Below, one piece after another: positions 42,129-45,841 of a stretch of 64,000 nt of DNA. The notes below the pieces were generated by a model. That model did no database searches and was not told the origin of the DNA. It saw only the letters and a program-made list of their open reading frames with translations. The stretch's first letter is position 1. Each line of letters begins with the position of its first letter. The DNA comes from Acidobacteriota bacterium (lineage in GTDB: Bacteria; Acidobacteriota; Terriglobia; UBA7540), in the NCBI GenBank assembly GCA_021838785.1, contig JAKCCV010000002.1, forward strand, positions 62,001-126,000, written 5' to 3'. The translations under genes were made by a program, and so were the position numbers.

Positions 42129-42827
42129 TTAACTGGGCGAACGGAGGGTCTCGCAGACGACGTATCGTCGTCCGACGGCAAAGAGAAAATCCCACAGGCG
42201 GTCGAGAACCGCACCGGCCGAGGCGAAGACATCGGAGACGGTGGTTGGGTCAATCCATCTGGCGAGCAATTGGCGTTCGATGCGGGAATGTTCCCGGTCG
42301 GCTTCGATGTGTACCTCGAAGTACTCAACCGCCTGGGGGCTGGTCAATCCGTAAAACCGGCGTAATCCGTCCAGCTTGGCCTCCGCGATCTTTGGGATCT
42401 GGCTTTCATAAGCGTAGAGGGCGGCTAGGCCCGCTGCGACGCTTTCCTCGCGGCAAATAGACCGGAACGTGCCGACAAGCTGCCGGGTTTCTGGCCATGG
42501 TTGGGCGCTGGCCATCTCTTCCCGTGTTACGCCGAGCGCCTCGGCGAACTGAAGCCACAGCTCAGGATGGTTCGGGTGGCCGGCTTCTTCGTCGGTCAAG
42601 TTGGAAAGAATGTGACGCCGGGTCGTGGGGTCCTCCGTGTGGGAGTGGAGAGCAGAGAGATACATCGGGAAGGCCGCCACGTGATGGTAATATTGCCGAG
42701 CATAGTCCACCAGCGCGAGTCCCGGCAACCTGCCGGCCGTCCATGCCCGATAAAAGGGATGAAGGAGTAGATGGTTCTTCGCAATCTGCGAGTCCAAGCA
42801 CGCCAAGGTTTCCGCTGCCATTTCCAT
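42129..42827 (-). CDS. CADD-family di-iron protein, likely self-sacrificing p-aminobenzoate synthase
   Basis: The protein is 232 residues from the ATG at 42827, which follows GGAGG with seven-base spacing; Chlamydia CADD is nearly the same length. The fold is the all-helical TenA/PqqC-like haem-oxygenase-like type. The six iron ligands known for Chlamydia CADD align one position earlier: Glu80 and His87 (NLTDEEAGHPNHPELW), Glu141 (YAYESQIP), His173, Asp177 and His180 (EVHIEADREHS). The residues reported there as the sacrificed Tyr27, and Tyr141 and Lys152, correspond to Tyr26, Tyr140 and Lys151 here. In chlamydiae this protein makes p-aminobenzoate from its own tyrosine side chain for folate synthesis. 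A rhodanese and a chorismate-using TrpE-type gene lie upstream on the same strand. Confidence 0.9.
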   Translation of the reverse strand: MEMAAETLACLDSQIAKNHLLLHPFYRAWTAGRLPGLALVDYARQYYHHVAAFPMYLSALHSHTEDPTTRRHILSNLTDEEAGHPNHPELWLQFAEALGVTREEMASAQPWPETRQLVGTFRSICREESVAAGLAALYAYESQIPKIAEAKLDGLRRFYGLTSPQAVEYFEVHIEADREHSRIERQLLARWIDPTTVSDVFASAGAVLDRLWDFLFAVGRRYVVCETLRSPS

Positions 42828-42944
42828 AGTTCCGCCTCCGATGCAGAATTCGCTTTCCTCCTTCGCTATTGAAGCCGCAGCGCCCACCGACGCTCCAGCT
42901 ACACAGGTTGCCTTTCCAGCCGGACGGTCTGGTGATTCGCGGCA

Positions 42945-43808
42945 TCAGGCCTGTGCACCGGCCGCTTCACCCTTCTCGATCGGGGCGTCCACCAGGTTGC
43001 CCCACTCCGTCCAGCTTCCGTCGTAGTTGCGAACTTTTTCAAACCCGAGCAGGTATTTGAGAACAAACCACGTGTGCGAACTGCGCTCGCCGATGCGGCA
43101 GTATGCAACGGTCTCCTTGTCGGGCTTGACACCCTGGGCGGTGTAAAGCTGAACCAATTCGTCGTATGATTTGAAGGTACCGTCTTCGTTAACGGCCTTG
43201 GACCAGGGAATGTTGCGGGCCGTAGGAATATGCCCGCCGCGCTGGGCCGTTTCCGTCATGCCAGCGGGAGCAATCACCTTGCCGGTAAATTCATCCGGAG
43301 ACCGCACGTCCACCAAGTGCGCACTTTTTTGGTCCATGATTTTGAAGACCTGTTCTCGACGGGCGCGAATGCTTTCGTCGGGCGGGGAAGCTTTATACTG
43401 GGTGCGTGGGACTTTGGGAAACTCTGTGGTGAAAGGCCGGCCTTCGAGCTCCCATTTTTTCCGTCCACCGTTCATCAACCGCGCGTCGCGGTGGCCGTAA
43501 TACTTGCATTGCCACAAAGCGTAGGCGGCAAACCAATTATTGTTGTCCCCGTAAAGCACGATGGTGGTGTCCGGGGCGATGCCCGACTGACTGCACAGCT
43601 CCTCGAACTGACGTTGGCCCAGTAAATCACGCCGCACGTTGTCCTGAAGCTGAGAAGTCCAATTCCAACCCACGGCGTTTTTGATGTGCCCTTTCTCATA
43701 GGCGCTGGTATCCACGTCCACTTCCACCAGGCGCACCTTCGGGTCGTCCACATGCTGCGCCACCCAATCGGTGGTGACTAAAACTTCGGGATGTTTGTAT
43801 TCACTCAT
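42945..43808 (-). CDS. two-domain thiosulfate/3-mercaptopyruvate sulfurtransferase (rhodanese)
   Basis: The 287-residue protein has two rhodanese domains. The first (about 8-125) has no catalytic cysteine. The second (about 150-275) carries the active-site loop CRIGERSS, with VDVRSPDEFTGKV and RGGHIPTARNIPWSKAVNE preceding it. The C-R-I-G-E-R loop is the form seen in actinobacterial and other CysA2/SseA-like thiosulfate sulfurtransferases. It transfers sulfane sulfur from thiosulfate to cyanide or a thiol acceptor. AAGGAGGAG precedes the ATG. It lies 117 bases upstream of the CADD gene on the same strand. Confidence 0.94.
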   Translation of the reverse strand: MSEYKHPEVLVTTDWVAQHVDDPKVRLVEVDVDTSAYEKGHIKNAVGWNWTSQLQDNVRRDLLGQRQFEELCSQSGIAPDTTIVLYGDNNNWFAAYALWQCKYYGHRDARLMNGGRKKWELEGRPFTTEFPKVPRTQYKASPPDESIRARREQVFKIMDQKSAHLVDVRSPDEFTGKVIAPAGMTETAQRGGHIPTARNIPWSKAVNEDGTFKSYDELVQLYTAQGVKPDKETVAYCRIGERSSHTWFVLKYLLGFEKVRNYDGSWTEWGNLVDAPIEKGEAAGAQA

Positions 43809-44001: not shown

Positions 44002-45522
44002 TTATGAGTTTTCGAGACCTTTCTCCGCCATTTCAAAGGCTTTCAGCATAGCCTTGGCTTTATTCATAGATTCCTCGCGCTCGCGGGCCGGGATGGAGTC
44101 GGCAACGATACCGGCGCCGGCTTGCAAATAGGCTCGACCCTCTTTGATCAACGCCGTTCGGATAGCAATGCAGGAATTGAGGTTGCCGGAGAAATCTGCG
44201 TAAAGGACGGAACCGCCATAAACGCCGCGGCGAGTGGGCTCGAGTTCGTCAATAATCTCCATGGCGCGAACCTTGGGCGCACCCGTCAACGTGCCTGCCG
44301 GAAAGCACGCCGCGAGCGCGGCATAGCTGTCCGCGTCCAAACGCAGTCGGCCACGAAGGGCCGAAACCAAGTGCATCACGTGCGAGTAACGCTCAACGAA
44401 CATCAGCCGTTCCGGGGCTACCGTTGAAAACTCGCACACACGGCCGATATCGTTCCGCCCAAGATCCACCAGCATGATGTGCTCAGCGCGCTCTTTTTCA
44501 TCGGCAAGCAATTCCTGTTCGAACTGGTGATCGGCTTCGGGCGTTGGCCCGCGCGGGCGAGTCCCGGCGATGGGCCGATACTCGACCTCGCGCCCGCTTA
44601 CTTTCACCAGCATCTCCGGCGAGGAACCGAGCACCGTGAAATCACCCAGACGGAGAAAATACATGTAGGGAGACGGATTGACTACGCGCAGAGCGCGATA
44701 AATCTCGAAAGCAGGAACACGCACCGGAACCGTCAGCCGCAGCGACAGCACCACCTGAAAAACATCCCCGGCGCGAATATATTCTTTGCCCTTTTCCACC
44801 ATGGACTCAAAGGCGCCTGGCTTCATGTTGGCTTGGATGCGCAAAGGCGCGCGGGGCCGGGGAAGGCGCGGCAGGCGCATGGGCCGGGCCAGACGACGTT
44901 CCAGCCTGTCAAGCTCTTCCACCGCGTGCTCGTATTTGGCGCGCAGGCTGCCCGGTCCTTCCTCGGGGAGCACATTGACCACCAGAAACATTTGACGCTG
45001 CGCGTGATCGAAGGCCACGAGGTTCAGAAAGTACATGAAAACCGCATCTGGGATTTCGACGTCCGGCTCAACGCGAGGCGGCAAATTTTCCAACTGGCGG
45101 ACCACATCGTAGGCGAGATAGCCGACGGCTCCAGCGGTAAAAGGGGGCAGCCCGGGAACCATCACCGAGCGATAAGGGGCGCTCTGCGCGCGCAGAAACT
45201 CGAAGATGTTGCCGCTATGTTCCTCGCGCTGCCGCCCCCGCTCGAGCACCATCGAGCGACCGCTGCAGCGAACCACCTGGAACGGGTCAGTTCCAAAAAA
45301 AGTGTAGCGGCCCACTCGCTCGCCGCCTTCGACGCTCTCCAAAAGAAAGCTATAATCTCGCGCGAAGCCTTGGCGCTTGGGATCGCCTTGCGGCACCAAC
45401 CTGAGAAACGCGGACACTGGGCTCAGTAAATCGGCCACGATGGTGCGATAGACGGGAACGACCGTGCCCAGCCCGGCGAGCCGCTTAAATTCCGTAAAGG
45501 TTGGCCGAACTCTGGATTCCAT
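44002..45522 (-). CDS. trpE: anthranilate synthase component I (TrpE; PabB-type not excluded)
   Basis: The protein is 506 residues from the ATG at 45522 (a TTG two codons earlier is possible). The N-terminal domain carries the tryptophan-binding LLES element (FLLESVEGGERVGRYTFFG). The chorismate-binding domain shows YRPIAGTRPRG, LLADEKERAEHIMLVDLGRN and FPAGTLTGAPKVRAMEIIDEL, with the conserved catalytic Glu and Lys region. It aminates chorismate to anthranilate with a glutaminase partner. No trpG/pabA or other trp genes are nearby, so TrpE versus PabB cannot be settled from context, although the LLES motif favours TrpE. It is 193 bases upstream of the rhodanese gene. Confidence 0.87.
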   Translation of the reverse strand: MESRVRPTFTEFKRLAGLGTVVPVYRTIVADLLSPVSAFLRLVPQGDPKRQGFARDYSFLLESVEGGERVGRYTFFGTDPFQVVRCSGRSMVLERGRQREEHSGNIFEFLRAQSAPYRSVMVPGLPPFTAGAVGYLAYDVVRQLENLPPRVEPDVEIPDAVFMYFLNLVAFDHAQRQMFLVVNVLPEEGPGSLRAKYEHAVEELDRLERRLARPMRLPRLPRPRAPLRIQANMKPGAFESMVEKGKEYIRAGDVFQVVLSLRLTVPVRVPAFEIYRALRVVNPSPYMYFLRLGDFTVLGSSPEMLVKVSGREVEYRPIAGTRPRGPTPEADHQFEQELLADEKERAEHIMLVDLGRNDIGRVCEFSTVAPERLMFVERYSHVMHLVSALRGRLRLDADSYAALAACFPAGTLTGAPKVRAMEIIDELEPTRRGVYGGSVLYADFSGNLNSCIAIRTALIKEGRAYLQAGAGIVADSIPAREREESMNKAKAMLKAFEMAEKGLENS

Positions 45523-45841
45523 CTTCAATGAATTTCCGCGTTAACACTCGTTGATACTCTTGCGCTCAATTGTCCTGCGATGGGCTCTTTCCAAGTGGCA
45601 AACCACTCCCCTGAATTCCAAAGACACCTGCCCCAAAGACAACATATCACACGATTGCCGTATTTCAATGTTGCAGAACCGGCAGGCGTAAATAGGCAGC
45701 GTCTTAGGTCGTCGGCTCGGCAGTTCTTGGGGCGAATTTTCCCACGCTTGACGGTTCTTCGCTCCGCCGCCGATAATGGGGTCTGCCTTGCCCAGCGCAC
45801 AACCTCCCGCGCTGGCTTGAACGCACGAAGGGAGCTTCTCC
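45523..45841. other. intergenic region between divergent trpE and aldehyde dehydrogenase genes
   Basis: About 320 bases holding the promoters of two divergent genes. I found no attenuator-like leader with tandem Trp codons, no T-box and no RNA gene. A minus-strand frame of 100 codons here (45541-45843) has no family resemblance. Confidence 0.4.

Follow-up and report, generated by a model that had tools for sequence, protein, structure and literature searches.

A CADD-family protein as the likely source of p-aminobenzoate in an acidobacterium without detectable PabABC

In the acidobacterial genome studied here, that of a soil-type bacterium, a self-sacrificing synthase of the CADD/NePabS family very probably supplies p-aminobenzoate (pABA) to dihydropteroate synthase (DHPS), in place of PabA, PabB and PabC. 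Established here are the family membership of the protein, its residue set and its fold, a host genome with FolE, FolK and FolP and no detectable PabABC, and the exclusion of CADD with PabB across genomes. The reaction and the roles of the residues are taken from CADD and NePabS (PMC11965152, PMC13108848). By analogy with these enzymes, a dimetal site with three histidine and three carboxylate ligands (E80, H87, E141, H173, D177 and H180) would activate O2, and the oxidising equivalent would hop via aromatic residues (candidates Y140/Y169, W91, Y46 and Y42) to Y26. The side chain of Y26 would be cut at the Cα-Cβ bond, leaving glycine, its ring-bearing fragment would be oxidised, with oxygens from O2, to the carboxylate, and K151 would give up its amine and be left as aminoadipate. 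Because Y26 and K151 would both be consumed, each protein molecule could yield at most one pABA.

The gene lies in the window, the 64,000-nucleotide stretch of DNA that was analysed, and begins with an ATG at position 42827 of the minus strand (Table 1). The original prediction placed a 232-residue open reading frame at 42129-42827, which proved exact; it gave no strand, and a plus-strand reading of this interval was ruled out, as it contains stops and no gene.

Table 1. Features of the CADD gene region, in window coordinates
Feature	Position	Strand	Basis
CADD-family self-sacrificing p-aminobenzoate synthase gene (putative), 232 aa	42827..42129	minus	family model, alignment, structure
Shine-Dalgarno region, GGAGG 7 nt before ATG	42834..42844	minus	read from sequence
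Rhodanese-like (3-mercaptopyruvate sulfurtransferase-like) gene, directly upstream of CADD gene	42945..43808	minus	profile search
TrpE, sole chorismate-binding enzyme of host genome, PIAGT motif	44002..45528	minus	profile search, motif

The gene product passed the NCBIfam model of the CADD family, TIGR04305, with 267.4 bits against a cut-off of 200, and the E-value of 8.2e-80 indicates that this match was not due to chance. It remained under the cut-offs of the PqqC model (TIGR02111; 57 bits versus 240) and the BesC model (57.5 bits versus 500). Its top PDB match by phmmer was the pABA synthase of Nitrosomonas europaea (9pj4; E 1.8e-54, 188 bits), followed by CADD of Chlamydia trachomatis (1rcw; E 2.4e-51) and, after a large gap, by BesC (E 1e-15). 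The AF2 model (pLDDT 96.7) had a seven-helix heme-oxygenase-like fold that was closest to CADD, with a TM score of 0.89 and 1.0 Å against Fe/Mn CADD in Foldseek. Structural alignment (VIA) gave a Z score of 33.5 to CADD 1rcw (rmsd 1.0 Å, model residues 6..220 on chain residues 7..220) versus 26.9 to PqqC. Identity to CADD (CT610; PDB 1RCW/8VA9) was 42-43%, at 0.9-1.0 Å over 212-214 residues, whereas PqqC, BesC and other proteins of the heme-oxygenase-like diiron oxidase (HDO)/TenA fold shared the fold, and HDOs also the ligand set, at approximately 16-23% identity. The protein was thus confirmed as a CADD homologue by family scores, by structure and by its position in the CADD clade of the tree described below; family scores and structure set it apart from PqqC, whereas a place firmly among PqqC/TenA proteins would have spoken against the original prediction. 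NePabS (NE1434; PDB 9PJ4), which complements an E. coli ∆pabABC strain according to the literature, has the same sacrificed tyrosine and lysine as the host protein and differs from it in an extra loop of approximately 10 residues.

Alignment to 1RCW showed that the numbering of the host protein is that of CADD minus one, with a constant offset through all named residues. All six predicted metal ligands were found at this offset. Likewise, the expected equivalents of CADD Y27, Y141 and K152 were present as Y26, Y140 and K151, and CADD Y43 and Y170 correspond to Y42 and Y169. The sacrificed tyrosine and lysine are Y27 and K152 in CADD and residues 25 and 159 in NePabS, where Y41 is the essential tyrosine (PMC11965152); their counterparts in the host protein are Y26, K151 and Y42. 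Together with Y42, the aromatic residues of the putative radical path and metal site are Y46, W91, Y140 and Y169. The alignment covered 98 members of the CADD family, drawn from several phyla: Y26, Y42 and all ligands were kept in every one, and K151 in 97, the remaining row being a gap. In part of this set the scan pattern forces the Y140/E141 or Y46 region; it leaves Y26, Y42, K151, E80, H87, W91, H173, D177 and H180 unforced. We compared these proteins with nine HDO/TenA-like paralogues, defined as proteins of the same phylum scoring under the CADD-family cut-off. Unlike in the host protein, the sacrificial tyrosine and lysine were absent from all nine, while Y42 was kept in two and the full ligand set in seven.

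These comparisons bear on whether the protein could be a heme-oxygenase-like diiron oxidase acting on another substrate, as PqqC-, BesC- or TenA-like proteins do, with pABA imported from the environment. The fold and the ligand set are common to such enzymes, but the scores fall far under the PqqC and BesC cut-offs and over that for CADD, and Y26 and K151, for which no role is known in other HDOs, are conserved across the family and missing from the paralogues. We consider this reading very improbable, and the analogy with CADD and NePabS supports assignment of the gene product as a self-sacrificing pABA synthase. HDO paralogues that keep the ligands and lack the sacrificial Tyr/Lys pair were seen in Acidobacteriota as L022, L023, L024 and L025, and some genomes carry two or three.

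The host genome is a 38-contig draft of 3.42 Mb with 98.45% completeness, such that 1-2% of it could be missing; judging only from its relatives and the size of the genome, the host appears to be free-living. A family-by-family search of this draft for PabB and PabC found neither. The Chorismate_bind search recovered a single enzyme, TrpE, which passed the trpE_most cut-off (527.6 versus 517.7 bits) and was under the PabB cut-offs. The lysine of the PIKGT motif has a role in PabB; the host TrpE has PIAGT, with alanine at this position, and is therefore not a PabB. The single class-IV aminotransferase (Aminotran_4) was IlvE, with 427 bits against a cut-off of 279, and it was under every PabC cut-off. 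The only PabA-like gene was a lone glutaminase of the TrpG type.

It is conceivable that TrpE and TrpG also form the aminodeoxychorismate synthase, that IlvE takes the part of the lyase, and that the CADD protein serves another purpose. In other bacteria a single glutaminase is known to work in both pathways, TrpE is encoded 1.2 kb upstream of the CADD gene on the same strand, and IlvE is distantly related to PabC (TIGR03461, 87 bits). However, the alanine of the PIAGT motif, the passing of the TrpE cut-off and the failing of those for PabB and PabC all argue against it, and those relatives within the class that do have PabB carry it as a distinct enzyme alongside the same kind of TrpE. We regard this arrangement as even less probable than an HDO with imported pABA. 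If the CADD-family protein is the source of pABA, the original proposal of a chorismate-independent folate route holds in part: PabABC, and with it aminodeoxychorismate, is bypassed. Tyrosine is normally derived from chorismate via prephenate, so that the route would not bypass chorismate itself.

Of the other folate genes, FolE, FolK and FolP were present, with FolP over its cut-off, and FolB, when searched for in the host genome, was not found. Three PTPS genes were present. One of them, L227 (C1:20513-20869), lies beside a QueE-like gene and carries CENIHGH, an instance of CExxHGH, the PTPS-I/III hybrid motif, for which a role in the synthesis of queuosine as well as folate is reported (PMC5041015). 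L227 probably bypasses FolB; together with CADD in a genome without PabABC, this would make two non-canonical folate steps in the host, as it seems from these gene sets. Two further genes of the PTPS-II type (CxxxxxHGH) lie directly upstream of FolE (L228/L229 and L225, C9:296899-298333). In the host FolP (L033) and in the DHPS of G297, the genome of the nearest CADD relative, the DHPS model matched only positions ~2-216 of 258; the C-terminal part of both proteins may hold an insertion.

To compare genomes, we counted and typed the chorismate-binding enzymes of each, taking the lysine motif to define the PabB type. Among 297 Acidobacteriota genomes, CADD was over the cut-off in 15, and five more had matches of 175-191 bits. 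Within the host class, PabB-type enzymes were found in 0 of 14 genomes with CADD versus 20 of 23 without it (Fisher, 1.1e-7). They were also absent from the six other Acidobacteriota with CADD and from the 30 CADD-bearing genomes reached via a scan of GTDB genome contigs, which are weaker evidence because their completeness was not stated and eight had no chorismate-binding match at all. Altogether, 0 of 50 CADD-bearing genomes had a PabB-type enzyme. On the TrpE tree of the host class the CADD state changed at least five times; pairs differing in CADD never differed in the same direction in PabB, all of them agreeing with the expectation, and were too few for significance in a sign test. Within the class, then, few independent switches underlie the exclusion, though several phyla are represented in the wider set.

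DHPS was over the cut-off in every CADD-bearing genome tested for it, which indicates that these organisms need pABA. The exclusion of CADD with PabB is a further argument against an HDO with another substrate. Six Acidobacteriota (G065, G155, G261, G219, G009 and G116) had DHPS but lacked both a PabB-type enzyme and a CADD passing the cut-off; the reason may be a gap in the assembly, uptake of pABA or some further route. Another source of pABA may therefore exist, as the import reading would have it, and absence of PabB is by itself no proof that CADD supplies pABA. G117 had neither PabB nor DHPS over the cut-off.

The original prediction described the reaction as known mainly from chlamydiae and Nitrosomonas, which turned out to be too narrow. 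CADD-type enzymes had already been named in Chloroflexi, Sphingomonas, Wolbachia and Rickettsia (PMC11965152), and our scan of GTDB genomes confirmed at least 544 CADD loci, spread over at least hundreds of species, so that the family must be considered common. The CADD tree comprised 70 rows, with environmental Chlamydiota standing for C. trachomatis; PqqC/TenA proteins were left out, and the distance from them is based on phmmer, the family models and structural alignment rather than on the tree. The host protein grouped with that of an acidobacterial MAG (69% identity; support 100/100) and then with a Terriglobia MAG (96/83), among CADDs of Armatimonadota, Verrucomicrobiota, Chlamydiota and Acidobacteriaceae. 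HDO paralogues fell outside the CADD clade (98/98), and NePabS formed a long branch near the base, the position of which was unsure. Acidobacteriota CADDs occurred in several separate places, which suggests several acquisitions in the phylum. The Acidobacteriaceae-named proteins (L153, L173, L175, L178 and L181) and those of family f2 (L009-L021) formed two well separated branches, suggesting that CADD was acquired more than once within the host class.

NePabS, with phenylalanine at positions 148 and 177, uses an Fe/Fe cofactor; changing both to tyrosine yields Mn/Fe, as in CADD, and the single F177Y substitution is already sufficient (PMC11965152). The host protein has tyrosine at both metal-selectivity positions (Y140 and Y169), matching CADD Y141 and Y170 and not NePabS F148 and F177, and is thus predicted to use Mn/Fe. 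All 20 Acidobacteriota CADDs in a sample drawn by profile had tyrosine at the first position; at the second, 14 had tyrosine and six phenylalanine. For Y140 we quote this sample alone: the 80 scan-derived loci give a biased frequency, since one scan pattern contains that residue. The host enzyme may nonetheless be a pABA synthase that works with Fe/Fe in vivo, a variant that we consider rather unlikely, though much less so than the two readings weighed above. Iron is expected to be less restricted in soil than in a host cell, and CADD variants at the selectivity positions are cambialistic (PMC11965152); against it stand tyrosines at both positions, when F177Y alone made NePabS Mn/Fe. The published explanation that Mn/Fe use reflects host iron restriction (PMC11965152) does not fit the distribution of tyrosines at both positions in most environmental members, provided that the two-residue rule holds beyond two enzymes. 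The tyrosines at the environmental metal sites argue against Mn/Fe use as an adaptation of pathogens only.

What is new here is the wide environmental spread of the family, its exclusion with PabB, and the CADD-like (Mn/Fe-type) tyrosines in most environmental members. On balance, we favor the view that environmental bacteria of several phyla, among them Acidobacteriota, Verrucomicrobiota, Armatimonadota and Zixibacteria, regularly reach folate by self-sacrificial pABA synthesis, that PabB was replaced more than once, and that most CADDs share the CADD-like Tyr/Tyr (Mn/Fe) site, so that Mn/Fe use is no adaptation by which intracellular pathogens cope with scarce iron. It is costly to draw an essential vitamin precursor from what is apparently a single source, a protein that turns over only once; biochemically, this had been described for just two organisms, an ammonia oxidiser and an intracellular pathogen. 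The host without detectable PabABC, and the lack of PabB-type enzymes in 49 other genomes that carry CADD, suggest that this is a general strategy among environmental bacteria. Natural pairs with and without the replacement occur within the genera g4 and g7 and offer openings to ask why cells switch, and the environmental Tyr/Tyr signature makes the host-iron-restriction idea directly testable.

Unlike CADD, the host gene is not clustered with folate genes: none was found near it in the window, where its neighbors are TrpE and the rhodanese-like gene, and FolP and IlvE probes of other CADD loci found no neighboring FolP or IlvE. In one locus of Armatimonadota (L170), TrpE and CADD are likewise close, approximately 2.6 kb apart. 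This linkage is absent in the nearest relative, L123, and was treated as coincidence. The sole promoter-like site on the minus strand of the stretch lies upstream of TrpE; such a consensus match is weak evidence, and it is compatible with a single trpE-rhodanese-CADD transcript. The adjacency of the rhodanese-like and CADD genes is kept in L123 (86% identity).
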